Below are positions 47,341-52,281 of a DNA stretch of 64,000 nt, piece by piece. The notes below the pieces were generated by a model, which saw nothing but the letters and a program-made list of their open reading frames with translations, ran no database searches and had not been told where the DNA came from. The translations under genes and the position numbers were made by a program. Origin of the DNA: Kordiimonas marina (lineage in GTDB: Bacteria; Pseudomonadota; Alphaproteobacteria; Sphingomonadales; Kordiimonadaceae). The first letter of the stretch is position 1. The number at the start of each line of letters is the position of its first letter. The DNA lies in contig NZ_JAINDF010000003.1 of the NCBI RefSeq assembly GCF_023006325.1, positions 496,001 to 560,000 of the forward strand, given 5' to 3'.

Positions 47341-49650
47341 GTGCCCTTGGCACATAAGAACGCCCCTGCCCACCTGCCGAGCCGCGAAGACGTCCTCGCC
47401 TTCATCAAGGACTCCAAGACCAAGGTGACCAAGCGGGAAATTTCCCGCGCCTTTGGCGTTACCGGCCCCGACAAGGTGCACCTGAAGAAGCTCCTCCGGG
47501 AAATGCAGGAAGACGGCACGCTGGCGAAGGACCAGGGACAAGCCCTCCGCCCCGCCGACCAGCTGCCCAGCGTGCAGGTGGTGGAGTTCGCAGGCCTCGA
47601 TTCCCACGGCGACCCGCTTGTGAAGCCGGTCAACTGGGAAGGCGAAGGCACGCCGCCAACCATTTATATCAGCGAAGAACGCAAGCATAAGCACGGCCGC
47701 GGGCGCGCCCCGGCGCTCGGCCCCGGTGACCGCGCGCTTGTCCGGGTCATCCAGGTCAAGAACGACCTTTACCGCGGCCATGTCCTCAAGGTGCTGAAAC
47801 CTGCCCCCAAGGCGCTGATGGGCGTGTTCAAGGGCAATGAGAACGGCGGCCGCATCGAACCCGTGGACAAAAAGAACCGGGACGAATACTGGGTCGACCG
47901 GGACGATATAAACGGGGCCGTGGACGGCGAACTGGTACTCGCTGAACCCGCGAAGCCCGGCAAACGCCACATGGGTCCGAAGCGCGCCCGCATCAAGGAA
48001 CGCTTGGGCGACCTTTCGGACGCGCGCTCGATCAGCATGATCGCGATCCATGCCCATGAAATTCCTTATGAATTCCCGGATGCAGTGATCAAGGAAGCCG
48101 AGGCTGCCAAGCCGGTTACCCTCGGCAATCGCACCGATCTCCGCGATATTCCGCTTATCACCATCGACCCCATCGACGCGCGCGACCATGACGATGCCAT
48201 CTGGGCCGAAGCCGACGATGATCCCAAAAACAAGGACGGCTGGCATGTGATGGTCGCCATCGCCGATGTCAGCCATTATGTCACCCCCGGCTCCGCGCTC
48301 GACCGCGAGGCGCTGAAACGCGGTAACAGCTGTTATTTCCCGGACCGGGTGGTGCCGATGCTGCCGGAAGCCCTGTCCGCCGACCTGTGCAGCCTGATGC
48401 CGGGCGTGGACCGTGCCTGTATGGCCGTCCACATGTGGTTCGACGCGAGCGGCCACAAGATCCGCCATAAATTCGTCCGCGGCCTGATGAAAAGCGCCGG
48501 CAATATCGATTATGGCCGCGTCCAGGCCGCGCTTGACGGCCATCCGGACGATGAGACCGGACCGCTCCTAGAAAGCGTCCTGAAGCCGCTCCACGGCGCC
48601 TGGAAGGCTCTGATGAAAGCCCGGGCCAAGCGTGAACCGCTGGAACTGGACCTGCCCGAACGCAAGATCGAGCTGGATAATGCGGGCCACGTGAAAGCCA
48701 TCACGCTGCGTGACCGGCTGGATGCGCACCGTATCGTCGAAGAATTCATGATCTCCGCCAACGTCTGCGCGGCGGAAGAGCTGGAGCATCACCATACCCC
48801 GGCCATGTACCGTGTGCATGAAGAGCCGCCGATGGAAAAGATGGAGTCGTTGCGCGACTTCCTCGCCACGCTGGACCTTAACCTCGCCAAGGGCCATGTG
48901 CTGATGGCCCGCCTGTTCAACGGCATCTTGGGCCAGGTGAAAGGCACCCCACACGAACATATGGTCAATGAGGTGGTGCTGAGGAGCCAGACACAGGCTT
49001 ACTATAGCCCCGAAAACCTCGGCCACTTCGGCCTCGCGCTCCGGCGCTATGCCCACTTTACTTCCCCGATCCGGCGCTATGCCGACCTTCTGGTCCACCG
49101 GGGCCTTGTCCGCGCGCTCGGCTTCGGTTCCGACGGCCTGACGGACGCGGAAATCCACAAAATGGGCGAGGTCGGCGAACAGATTTCCGCCACCGAACGC
49201 CGGGCGATGATTGCCGAGCGCGAATCGACCGACCGCTACATGGCCTCCTACCTCGCCGACCATGTGGGGGAAGAGTTCGAAGGCCGCATCACCGGCGTCA
49301 CCCGTTTCGGCCTGTTTGTGGCGCTTGAGCCTTCAGGCGGCGACGGGCTTATTCCGATCTCGGAGATCGGGCAGGATTTCTACGCGCTCGATGAACTCCA
49401 TCACCGGCTGGTGGGCGAACGCTACGGCGAAAGCTTCTCGCTTGGGGACAAGCTCACCGTCAAGCTCACGGAAGCCAACCGCTATACCGGCGGCCTGAAG
49501 CTTGACCTGGCGGGCGAACGTGATGTTCCGGCCTTTGCCAAGCACAAGCGCCGCGGCCGTGGCGGCCCGCCCCCGCGCGCCAAGGGCCGCAAGGCCCGTC
49601 CGGTCGGCGGTGAAAAGCCAGGCCGCAAAAAAGGCGGCCGCCGCCACTGA
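47341..49650 (+). CDS. rnr: Ribonuclease R
   Basis: RNase R is a 3'-5' exoribonuclease that degrades structured RNA and works with SmpB/tmRNA. The 769-residue protein starts at GTG 47341 (AGGA upstream) with an HTH_12 region (REDVLAFIKDSKTKVTKREISRAFGV), then cold-shock domains, the RNB catalytic core with DARDHDDAIWAE (acidic metal ligands) and an S1 domain (FEGRITGVTRFGLFVALEPSG). The basic tail (KRRGRGGPPPRAKGRK) is typical. It follows topA behind a terminator. Confidence 0.95.
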   Translation: MPLAHKNAPAHLPSREDVLAFIKDSKTKVTKREISRAFGVTGPDKVHLKKLLREMQEDGTLAKDQGQALRPADQLPSVQVVEFAGLDSHGDPLVKPVNWEGEGTPPTIYISEERKHKHGRGRAPALGPGDRALVRVIQVKNDLYRGHVLKVLKPAPKALMGVFKGNENGGRIEPVDKKNRDEYWVDRDDINGAVDGELVLAEPAKPGKRHMGPKRARIKERLGDLSDARSISMIAIHAHEIPYEFPDAVIKEAEAAKPVTLGNRTDLRDIPLITIDPIDARDHDDAIWAEADDDPKNKDGWHVMVAIADVSHYVTPGSALDREALKRGNSCYFPDRVVPMLPEALSADLCSLMPGVDRACMAVHMWFDASGHKIRHKFVRGLMKSAGNIDYGRVQAALDGHPDDETGPLLESVLKPLHGAWKALMKARAKREPLELDLPERKIELDNAGHVKAITLRDRLDAHRIVEEFMISANVCAAEELEHHHTPAMYRVHEEPPMEKMESLRDFLATLDLNLAKGHVLMARLFNGILGQVKGTPHEHMVNEVVLRSQTQAYYSPENLGHFGLALRRYAHFTSPIRRYADLLVHRGLVRALGFGSDGLTDAEIHKMGEVGEQISATERRAMIAERESTDRYMASYLADHVGEEFEGRITGVTRFGLFVALEPSGGDGLIPISEIGQDFYALDELHHRLVGERYGESFSLGDKLTVKLTEANRYTGGLKLDLAGERDVPAFAKHKRRGRGGPPPRAKGRKARPVGGEKPGRKKGGRRH

Positions 49651-49677
49651 GGCTCACCCTTCCCTGCACAGATAACA

Positions 49678-49709
49678 AAGCGGCACCGACGATATTGTCG
49701 GTGCCGCTT
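49678..49709. terminator. Bidirectional hairpin between rnr and the cytochrome-porin gene
   Basis: A perfect 13-bp stem (49678-49690 with 49697-49709) with a 6-base loop. On the minus strand it is followed by TTTGTTAT, on the plus strand by C-rich DNA. It lies between two convergent genes and most likely ends the 49746 gene, perhaps also rnr. Confidence 0.7.
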
Positions 49710-49745
49710 CCCCCAGGTCATGCTGAGATGGCTCTGACTGTCCTC

Positions 49746-51158
49746 CTAGAACGTCAGGGTCGTCAGCACGAATAAGGTGTTGTTATCGGACGCATGGCGC
49801 CCCATGCCATCCACATTGTTGGTTTGCCCGTCCATGCTGGCATAGGCCACATACTGAAGCGTCAGTTTGGGGTTGAACCAGGGGTAGGCGCCGAGCGGTT
49901 TCTTGTGGAACGGCAACCAGTCACCTTCGACGATGAATTCGGTCGAATTGGGTGAGCCTTTGAGCGTGCCATATAAGGCCGGGTCAGGATCGCCTGAGAT
50001 GCGGACCATGCCCAACGTTGCGCCGTACGTATGGTCATACGTGTAGGAGACGCTGGTGTTGAAGCTGTGCAGCGTGTTCGACACATTATCCGCATCACCA
50101 AGCGCATGGCTGGCATCAAGCCGCTGATTCTCGAAGATCAGGCTGGCACGGGCCGTGACATCATAATTGTCGGCAATCCGCTGGTACGTGGCATCGAAGC
50201 CGACATCGGTATAATGGTCGGACCCCACGAACCTGTGCCCGTCAGGATACAAGGATGCAGCCATCCCGAACGTTCCGACCGAGAAAAAGTTCGCCCCTTC
50301 ATCCTTCTGGATGGCCAAACGCCAGTATGGCGCTATGCCACGGGAGCCAGGAGTGCCGCTGGCATCACCGGTCAGGCTTCCGATCAGGCTGCGGGACAGC
50401 ATGTGATAGAAGCCAGCCTCGGCATAAAGCGTATCGTTATAGAGACCGTACGCGGTAACGCCGTAGGAGATTTGCCCAAGCCCGCCTTCGATGAGGGTCG
50501 CGGCTGCCGGTCCAGGCGCCAGCGCCGAGCCGTCAAATGGGAAGCCCCATGCAGGTGTGGAGTTGAACAGGTCCTGCACGGTCGGGTTATTGTTGATGCT
50601 GACCCCATACTGCAGGTCCTTGCCGTTCATCGTGGTGCTGTCGGCATAGCGGATGTCTACGTTATCCCAGGACCAGCCTTTTTCGACACCGTCATAGGTG
50701 ATCTGAACAAAGGCACCGACCTTGCCGACAACCTTGCCGCCATAGAAGAGGCTGAGTTGGTCGACCGTCCAGTTATCATTCGTGCCATAGCCATCAGCGG
50801 CGTTGTCGGTCTGGTCCTTGGCCGTATGGGTGAAGGAGCCCTGCGCCCAGGCGCTGAACTTCTCGAAGAAAGGCACATCGCCTTCCGAATAGCCGCTTGC
50901 CTTGAACTCACGCCCCACCGAATTGAGCTGCGGGTAGACCGTGTGGCAGGCGTTGCATTCCATGCCGGTCTGGCGGGCAAAGGATGGGATCGCGGCCGCC
51001 GGATGGCTGACCCCCAAGCTCATCAGGCCCAAAACCAGCGGCAACGCCAGGGTTGGTAAATATCGCCCACGCCGCGGCCTGACACCGCTTTTTACTGACG
51101 CGGACCCGAAGGACGCGGACAGGATGCCGCGCCGGACTTTTCTCAAGATAGTTTTCAT
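49746..51158 (-). CDS. Fused monoheme cytochrome-porin (Cyc2-like), outer membrane
   Basis: A 470-residue exported protein. The N-terminus is long (56 residues, basic until about 33, then LPTLALPLVLGLMSLGV) with cleavage likely after HPAAA at 56. The mature start IPSFARQTGMECNACHTVYPQLNSVG, given as residues 57-82, carries one CxxCH heme c site (Cys68, Cys71, His72) of the form seen in Cyc2 fused cytochrome-porins. The rest is rich in alternating aromatic strands (LSLFYGGKVVGKVGAFVQITYDG and so on) and ends in Phe, as outer-membrane beta barrels do. Cyc2 passes electrons through the outer membrane during Fe(II) oxidation. No other electron-transfer gene is near. GGAG lies before ATG 51158. 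Confidence 0.82.
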   Translation of the reverse strand: MKTILRKVRRGILSASFGSASVKSGVRPRRGRYLPTLALPLVLGLMSLGVSHPAAAIPSFARQTGMECNACHTVYPQLNSVGREFKASGYSEGDVPFFEKFSAWAQGSFTHTAKDQTDNAADGYGTNDNWTVDQLSLFYGGKVVGKVGAFVQITYDGVEKGWSWDNVDIRYADSTTMNGKDLQYGVSINNNPTVQDLFNSTPAWGFPFDGSALAPGPAAATLIEGGLGQISYGVTAYGLYNDTLYAEAGFYHMLSRSLIGSLTGDASGTPGSRGIAPYWRLAIQKDEGANFFSVGTFGMAASLYPDGHRFVGSDHYTDVGFDATYQRIADNYDVTARASLIFENQRLDASHALGDADNVSNTLHSFNTSVSYTYDHTYGATLGMVRISGDPDPALYGTLKGSPNSTEFIVEGDWLPFHKKPLGAYPWFNPKLTLQYVAYASMDGQTNNVDGMGRHASDNNTLFVLTTLTF

Positions 51159-51525
51159 CTTGCTTCTCCAGGCTTTTGGTTGGCCTGAGAGTCTTCGCGC
51201 CCTGCCGATACCGGCAAAACGAGACTGTCAGACAACACTGCTGTTGGAAGCGTCGATGGTGCCAGGGGCCACCCTCAGACAAGTCCGCTATGAGTTACTC
51301 TCTCAATAACGGGACCCTCTCGAGGCTTTGTCGTGCCTAAGCCTGGTCCGCAGAACCATTCGGCGTCCCGTCTTCCACCTAACATTCGGGCATGAGACGG
51401 GTCTTTCAACGCAGGCATAAAAACAACCCTGGCGTTGGCTAACCTTGATAATAGTCAAGTGGGAACACGAGCTTGCACACGCCCGCTAAAATTGCAGGCA
51501 TAAAAGCAACACTATCGGATCGGGG
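51159..51525. other. Non-coding leader region with structured elements and direct repeats
   Basis: A gap of 367 bases upstream of the cytochrome-porin gene. On the minus strand two adjacent hairpins (GGUUC-UGC-GGACC from 51357-51345, and a 6-bp AGGCUU/AAGCCU stem at 51344-51323) are enclosed by an 8-bp stem (51372-51365 with 51315-51308). The segment AGACGGG at 51373-51367 can instead pair with CCCGUCU at 51401-51395. A further hairpin sits at 51202-51216. Two 20-base direct repeats (51411 and 51494) lie farther upstream. There is no tRNA or known riboswitch core here that I can identify. Confidence 0.5.
51411..51513 (+). repeat. Direct repeat pair with GCAGGCATAA core
   Basis: Two 20-base copies at 51411-51430 and 51494-51513, matching at 18 of 20 positions and 83 bases apart. 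The 10-base core GCAGGCATAA also occurs once more at 14735-14744 (end of udgB) and, with one change, at 52405-52414 and inverted at 52448-52457 before rpmG. Confidence 0.6.
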
Positions 51526-52281
51526 CTAGAGAATGCCGAGCTTGACGAACACAGTGGCCACATCGTCGGCGAAATTCGCGCCTTTCCGGAGCACCGGCAC
51601 GTCAGCCGGCAGGTCGGTAATTTCGTGGCTCTCCGTGGCGATGAGGGCCACGGGAATATTCCGCGTGGTCGGCATGGCGCGGAGCGCGCAGGCGAGGTCC
51701 ACGCCCGTCAGTTCCGGCATCACGCGGGAAACGATCACCGCATCGGGCCGCATGGACGGAATAAGCTGGACCGCATCCATGGTGGAGGCGACGTTGATCA
51801 TGCGGTAGCCGCATTCAAGCAGTTCCCGCGTGACGATTTTGGTGGCGAGGCCCGGCTCCATCACCAGCATCACCTCAATATCCGTGACCGTCACATCGCT
51901 GACCTCGAAGCCGCCTTTGTTCGGCAGCTTGCGCATCATCTGGGAAACATCGATCTCCCGATTGTGGACAAAGGCCTCCAGGCATTCGGCCATACGGTCG
52001 GCATAATAGAGAATGTCACGACTGACCTCAGGCGTCAGGTCCTTGACGTTGAAGAAATAGTCCTCGAAACGGTGGCACAGCACCTTGAGGGCCTTCATAT
52101 CGAAACTGGCGGCAACGGTCTTCAAAGAGTGTGCCTCAAGCCGGACGACGGCGAGCGCATCCGTGCCTTTGATCACGCCCTCTTGAAAATGCTGTACCGC
52201 TTCCTGCAGATTGGCGAGACGGTCCTCGACCGTATCAATGGCTTCGGTGCGTAACTCTTCAACAAGATCGTTTTCGATCAT
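51526..52281 (-). CDS. Hpt domain protein with degenerate receiver domain
   Basis: A 251-residue cytosolic signalling protein. Residues 15-110 form a four-helix Hpt domain with the phosphorylated His51 in EAHSLKTVAASF. Residues 133-251 are a CheY-like fold without catalytic residues: the acidic pair is replaced by VMEP, and the phospho-Asp is Ser185 in DAVIVSRVMPELTG. It should accept and pass phosphate on His51 while its receiver serves as a silent interaction domain. No kinase lies next to it, and the partner is unknown. Confidence 0.85.
   Translation of the reverse strand: MIENDLVEELRTEAIDTVEDRLANLQEAVQHFQEGVIKGTDALAVVRLEAHSLKTVAASFDMKALKVLCHRFEDYFFNVKDLTPEVSRDILYYADRMAECLEAFVHNREIDVSQMMRKLPNKGGFEVSDVTVTDIEVMLVMEPGLATKIVTRELLECGYRMINVASTMDAVQLIPSMRPDAVIVSRVMPELTGVDLACALRAMPTTRNIPVALIATESHEITDLPADVPVLRKGANFADDVATVFVKLGIL

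Follow-up and report, generated by a model that had tools for sequence, protein, structure and literature searches.

The window, a 64,000-nucleotide stretch of Kordiimonas marina DNA, contains on its minus strand an intact reading frame that starts at an ATG and encodes a 470-residue protein, almost certainly a cytochrome-porin of the Cyc2 family (Table 1). A GGAG that by eye resembles a ribosome-binding site lies immediately 5' of the start codon. The N-terminus of the protein runs from a basic stretch through a hydrophobic segment to SHPAAA and then IPSFARQTGMECNACHTVYPQLNSVGREFKASGY, and the SHPAAA/IPSF junction looks, by eye, like a signal-peptidase site. A CxxCH near a processed N-terminus and a terminal Phe had been pointed out in a preliminary description of this DNA, and both are seen: the single CxxCH occupies residues 68–72, behind the signal-peptide-like start, and the last residue is Phe470.

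Downstream, the gene converges with rnr, which ends at 49650, and upstream a 367-nt gap separates it from a same-strand gene (51526–52281) whose product has an Hpt domain plus a weak receiver domain. The gene had been described as isolated, which is borne out, since convergent rnr on one side and the gap on the other leave it as a lone unit. The structured leader proposed at the same time stands in part. The upstream region folds better than its shuffles (z −2.3, with 1 of 100 shuffles as good; −2.6 in a repeat), and six other intergenic stretches of 320–367 nt in the window all score above it (z −1.07 to +1.18). The effect is modest, however: the four shorter control stretches include two with z below −2 as well, among them the terminator gap. 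An Rfam search of the region returned nothing at gathering and one microRNA match at E 9.7. A riboswitch was considered at this position, and no Rfam family fits. The two copies of a 20-bp direct repeat in the region are 83 nt apart, and with up to two mismatches allowed the 3.68-Mb genome has no third copy; they are possible regulator sites.

Table 1. Features of the cytochrome-porin locus, in window coordinates
Feature	Position	Strand	Basis
Cyc2-type monoheme cytochrome-porin, 470 aa	49746..51158	-	ORF, motif, homology, trees
Signal-peptide-like N-terminus, residues 1–56, SHPAAA at its end before IPSF	50991..51158	-	By eye
Heme region, residues 57–80, IPSFARQTGMECNACHTVYPQLNS, CxxCH at 68–72	50919..50990	-	Sequence and published motif
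C-terminal porin-like part, residues 92–470, ending LTTLTF	49749..50885	-	Cluster-1-type Cyc2 profile match, 343 columns including the heme region
Terminator-like hairpin, 14 pairs, between the 3' end of the gene and convergent rnr	49677..49710	-	
Upstream region, 367 nt, folding modestly better than its shuffles	51159..51525	-	
20-bp direct repeat, copy 1	51411..51430	.	
20-bp direct repeat, copy 2	51494..51513	.	

Membership of the Cyc2 family

Papers are cited here by PMC accession. Cyc2 is defined in PMC8406198 by a CXXCH near the N-terminus, AXPXFAR[Q/K][T/Y] before it, PXL four residues after it, a minimum length of 365 residues and a porin of 16 strands. The heme context of the window protein fits this motif residue for residue: the signature reads AIPSFARQT-GME-CNACH-TVY-PQL, with AIPSFARQT at residues 56–64, in a chain of 470 residues. 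Similarity to Cluster-1-type sequences, whose taxon is inferred, is strong. General searches contributed little. The window protein gave one Pfam match (E 0.051, far under its cut-off) and none in NCBIfam, and Pfam searches with all 56 members of its clade (see below) gave one stray match, in one member. Sequence matches in the PDB (two nanobodies at E 0.24–0.33 and one other at E 0.95) were taken as chance.

Trees were built with FastTree and IQ-TREE from 120 aligned sequences, of which 372 columns were kept; six entries that lacked CxxCH or fell short of 330 residues (two of L067; L185, L186, L202, and L203) and one duplicate (L056) were left out. The identical 56-tip clade containing the window protein is recovered in both (FastTree support 0.834; UFBoot 84), and takes in proteins from Acidiphilium, Burkholderiales, Polymorphobacter, and Ideonella (family Sphaerotilaceae). 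Among the other 64 sequences is a clade of 40, comprising a Gallionella protein (L002) and sequences from the class around genome G441 (UFBoot 100, a label that may be off by one node in the re-rooted tree). This class, represented by 78 genomes, is presumably Zetaproteobacteria. The window protein occupies a long branch (0.665) inside an eight-tip group (FastTree 0.894; UFBoot 50), and support for its exact position within the 56-tip clade is low.

Three Cyc2 clusters have been defined (PMC7029218). The clade of the window protein is likely Cluster 2, that of Acidithiobacillus ferrooxidans Cyc2, because Acidiphilium, Burkholderiales, and Ideonella proteins fall within it; the label is one that the literature suggests, the A. 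ferrooxidans chromosomal Cyc2 being absent from the 120-sequence tree. A. ferrooxidans Cyc2 has been linked to homologues of Rhodanobacteraceae, Hyphomicrobiales, Burkholderiales, Acidiphilium, and others (PMC10654088). Cluster 2 genes have also been assigned to Leptothrix and Sphaerotilus genomes other than L. ochracea (PMC11412304), an indirect connection that runs through Ideonella as a member of Sphaerotilaceae. An Acidithiobacillus chromosome was sought via rusticyanin (TIGR03095), for which 29 of 166 genomes gave weak matches and 0 of 166 a match over the cut-off. Cluster 2 Cyc2 (A. ferrooxidans and homologues) shares with the window protein a monoheme N-terminus, the Cyc2 signature and a long porin-like C-terminus. 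Unlike in A. ferrooxidans, the window gene has neither a rus operon nor a downstream cytochrome; it is a single gene, and its genome gave no RuBisCO match. The Cluster 1 proteins (Mariprofundus ferrooxydans PV-1, Gallionellaceae) carry the same signature and are alignable over 343 columns, whereas the window protein lies in a separate clade and is 17–22% identical to 29 sequences, 28 of them from the presumed Zetaproteobacteria class.

This low identity, together with the lack of a credible Pfam or NCBIfam match, could indicate an unrelated family of heme-c porins whose likeness to Cyc2 is confined to the short heme motif. Such a reading is highly improbable, given that hhalign aligns the 56-sequence clade with a 10-sequence Cluster-1-type Cyc2 alignment over 343 columns (Prob 99.8, E 7e-28), far beyond the heme region. 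The profile homology also gives good indirect support for a predicted porin fused to the heme domain. Direct predictions, from which some 16 strands had been expected, yielded no barrel: AlphaFold2 models of the window protein had mean pLDDT values of 25.9 (two-row alignment) and 27.8 (four-row alignment), and an amphipathic-strand scan and a hydropathy autocorrelation gave no clear signal (z 0.1 in one of them), both also separating OmpF and LamB poorly from soluble proteins. The original filing of the gene as a Cyc2-like fused monoheme cytochrome-porin is thus backed by the published signature, by homology well past the heme region and by the trees.

The signature itself varies within the clade. 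It is kept in full, in its strict form, in 19 of the 56 members, the window protein included, while the Arg is lost in 11 (FAEQTG, FAAQTG, and similar), among them the closest relative. The published screen PXFAR[Q/K][T/Y] passes 26 members and fails 30, the 11 without the Arg among them; motif-filtered surveys therefore miss members and undercount the clade.

Distribution and the site in related genomes

Relatives alignable over the length of the protein are 31.6–49% identical to it, come from several proteobacterial groups, and are led by L059 at 49%. The K. marina genome itself has one match only, the gene in question. At the level of the order, 8 of the 147 genomes sampled have a match, counting the window's own. 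In G109, G145, and G078 (the last with two frames) it spans most of the protein, and in four others it is confined to the heme region. The corresponding counts, again with the window's own genome, are 10 of 289 for the class sample and 88 of 398 for the phylum sample, 67 of the 88 coming from the small class around G441, where 67 of 78 genomes match (38 of 39 among its good genomes). In the class around G708, matches at E ≤ 0.001 occur in 56 of the 321 genomes sampled, some of them restricted to the heme region. A Cyc2 sequence from a genome of the latter class with 7% contamination (L160, G1056:C104) nests among G441-class sequences and is perhaps a mis-binned contig. Five scans of viral contigs gave two relatives in all.

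Relatives covering 80% or more of the protein occur in nine plasmid records, from Polymorphobacter, Caballeronia, Methylocystis, Ideonella, Acidiphilium, Acidithiobacillus, and Paraburkholderia. Two of these loci, on a plasmid of A. ferrooxidans YQ-N3 (L050, CP084173.1) and on Acidiphilium cryptum pACRY03 (L056), have the same gene order and an identical Cyc2-type protein, as in a shared plasmid or a mixed culture. The Cyc2 family, whose studied members shuttle electrons between extracellular iron and the interior of the cell, is already described and is widespread outside known iron oxidisers. The initial statement that its role there is not known agrees with the literature (PMC10654088, PMC11412304), yet such genes are not rare, as the 56 of 321 genomes in the G708 class attest.

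All 19 genomes sampled from the genus carry the flanking Hpt gene. A cytochrome-porin match is absent from each of the 18 congeners, 14 of which are at least 90% complete, and tblastn of their 18 loci for the cytochrome-porin gave no match better than E 2. In 11 of the 18, rnr is the immediate neighbour of the Hpt gene, with nothing between them; in four, other DNA intervenes, and three loci stop short of rnr. The intervening DNA includes a frame of zinc-alcohol-dehydrogenase type (G076), response-regulator frames (G052, checked; G067, by likeness) and, in G070, an unread gap of ~0.6 kb. Congener sites with differing frames are those of loci L213, L214, L216, L217, and L218. Beside the Hpt gene, G093 has a frame with weak, sub-cut-off matches to the metallo-beta-lactamase superfamily, and G049 has two frames to which no identity is attached.

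Genes seem to come and go at the rnr–Hpt site, and the simplest history, and the most likely, is that the cytochrome-porin gene was gained laterally in the window lineage. A large role of horizontal transfer in the history of Cyc2 has been argued in PMC12442345. The GC3 of the window gene is 0.735, compared with 0.749–0.782 in four nearby genes, and composition gives no sign of recent acquisition. It is conceivable that the gained gene is of no use here and is being lost, as its isolation, the congeners that lack it, the varied content of the site within the genus and the missing partner gene would allow. This is distinctly improbable for a gene with an intact 470-codon frame, a preserved heme motif, a GC3 near that of its neighbours, a ribosome-binding-like site and a terminator-like hairpin of its own. 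A close orthologue with which to compare the frame was not found.

Partner cytochromes and proposed function

A c-type cytochrome frame lies directly downstream of the cytochrome-porin gene in 23 of 55 clade relatives, compared with 4 of 47 sequences outside the clade. Partners were defined as same-strand CxxCH frames of up to 300 aa at −250 to +300 nt downstream, the distance being taken to the first start codon of the longest frame. The control comprises 47 of the 64 outside sequences, as the 17 sequences of L097–L115 have short flanks and were left out. Two relatives were counted as without a partner, L188, with less than 450 nt of room downstream, and L068, whose monoheme cytochrome frame lies 679 nt downstream, past the limit. 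Thirteen of the 23 partners are monoheme, nine diheme, and one of another kind. It takes an extended start to bring the Acidiphilium plasmid pair inside the limit; measured to the annotated one, the gap grows to 504 nt and the count falls to 22 of 55. Mono- or diheme cytochrome genes adjoining cyc2 were reported earlier in Acetobacteraceae (PMC10715153). In one locus, L183, a frame of 1647 aa containing 55 CxxCH motifs lies ~1 kb beyond a clade member and its diheme cytochrome. The retrieved loci, scanned for CoxB, blue-copper and Rieske motifs, contained three Rieske-like patterns and none of the CoxB or blue-copper kind.

The window gene has no cytochrome gene directly downstream, and only one of the seven relatives in its eight-tip group has one; this group may therefore have another partner or another job. 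One such job would be redox sensing, metal detoxification or pore gating by the heme domain, outside energy metabolism, with the barrel acting mainly as a pore. Besides the scarcity of partners in the nearest group, the clade members on plasmids of Caballeronia, Paraburkholderia, Methylocystis, and Ideonella, which are not known as iron oxidisers, could be read in this way. The cytochrome frames adjoining so many clade relatives point instead to electron transfer, and each of the three clusters has one member with biochemical evidence of being an Fe(II) oxidase (PMC8406198); a role outside energy metabolism is improbable. The window protein is very likely an outer-membrane electron conduit.

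Porins of the MtrB/PioB/MtoB type with a multiheme cytochrome are outer-membrane electron conduits too; there the partner is a decaheme protein, in contrast to the one fused heme of the window protein. Searches of the window genome for MtrB/PioB (MtrB_PioB, PF11854) and for RuBisCO (PF00016) gave no match, and because of the latter result growth on iron via the Calvin cycle is unsupported. The rus operon order cyc2-cyc1-cup-coxBACD-rus does not occur at the locus, where the neighbours are convergent rnr and the Hpt/weak-receiver gene. The genome has eight PF00034 matches, including a monoheme cytochrome (G000:C22:187021-187308), a two-domain diheme cytochrome (C18:489634-490284) and CcoP. The monoheme partners of the relatives match resident cytochromes, the best being an Acidiphilium partner with 48% identity over 98 aa. 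Side by side at C11 lie the genes for CcoO and CcoP, subunits of a cbb3-type oxidase, each scoring above its NCBIfam cut-off.

The best overall explanation, which we consider probable, is a laterally gained outer-membrane conduit of the Cyc2 family that uses resident periplasmic cytochromes. After export, heme c would be attached to the N-terminal domain, and the remainder of the protein would form an outer-membrane barrel whose periplasmic mouth is plugged by the heme domain. Single electrons would then be exchanged between a periplasmic cytochrome c and dissolved iron, or some other small redox partner, at the surface. As no partner gene lies beside the window copy, resident cytochromes of the partner class, such as the two named above, are invoked to take over, followed by the cbb3-type oxidase. 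Any inward feed of electrons would probably be a supplement in an organism living on organic matter, given that neither RuBisCO nor MtrB/PioB was matched.

Whether Fe(II) oxidation is the main direction is an evenly balanced question, and the sequence gives no hint of which way electrons flow. The same protein could work in reverse, passing electrons out to Fe(III) or another surface acceptor at low oxygen, as proposed for A. ferrooxidans Cyc2B. Cyc2B has been tied to anaerobic Fe(III) reduction, and Acidiphilium, called an iron-reducing heterotroph in the same papers (PMC10715153, PMC8790237), has a plasmid-borne clade member followed by a c-type cytochrome gene; the missing RuBisCO match is likewise in keeping with outward flow. 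We nevertheless regard the reverse direction as rather unlikely, CcoO and CcoP being encoded and oxygen respiration from a periplasmic cytochrome so being possible.

It is tempting to speculate, though we would hold this tentatively, that one laterally gained gene, encoding a conduit that takes in electrons, turns an organotrophic alphaproteobacterium into a facultative consumer of extracellular electrons. The partnerless cytochrome-porin would dock on resident periplasmic cytochromes and feed the cbb3 oxidase, under control exerted via the 367-nt upstream region and its pair of 20-bp repeats. The interest of the locus lies in a lone, laterally gained copy and an empty site in relatives, which would allow a simple genetic test. 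Such a test would be a clean one, since the gene is carried by one species of a 19-genome genus, at least 11 relatives have the flanking genes side by side, and the genome matches neither RuBisCO nor MtrB/PioB, either of which could confound the outcome. K. marina offers a natural test of the role that Cyc2 homologues play beyond the known iron oxidisers.
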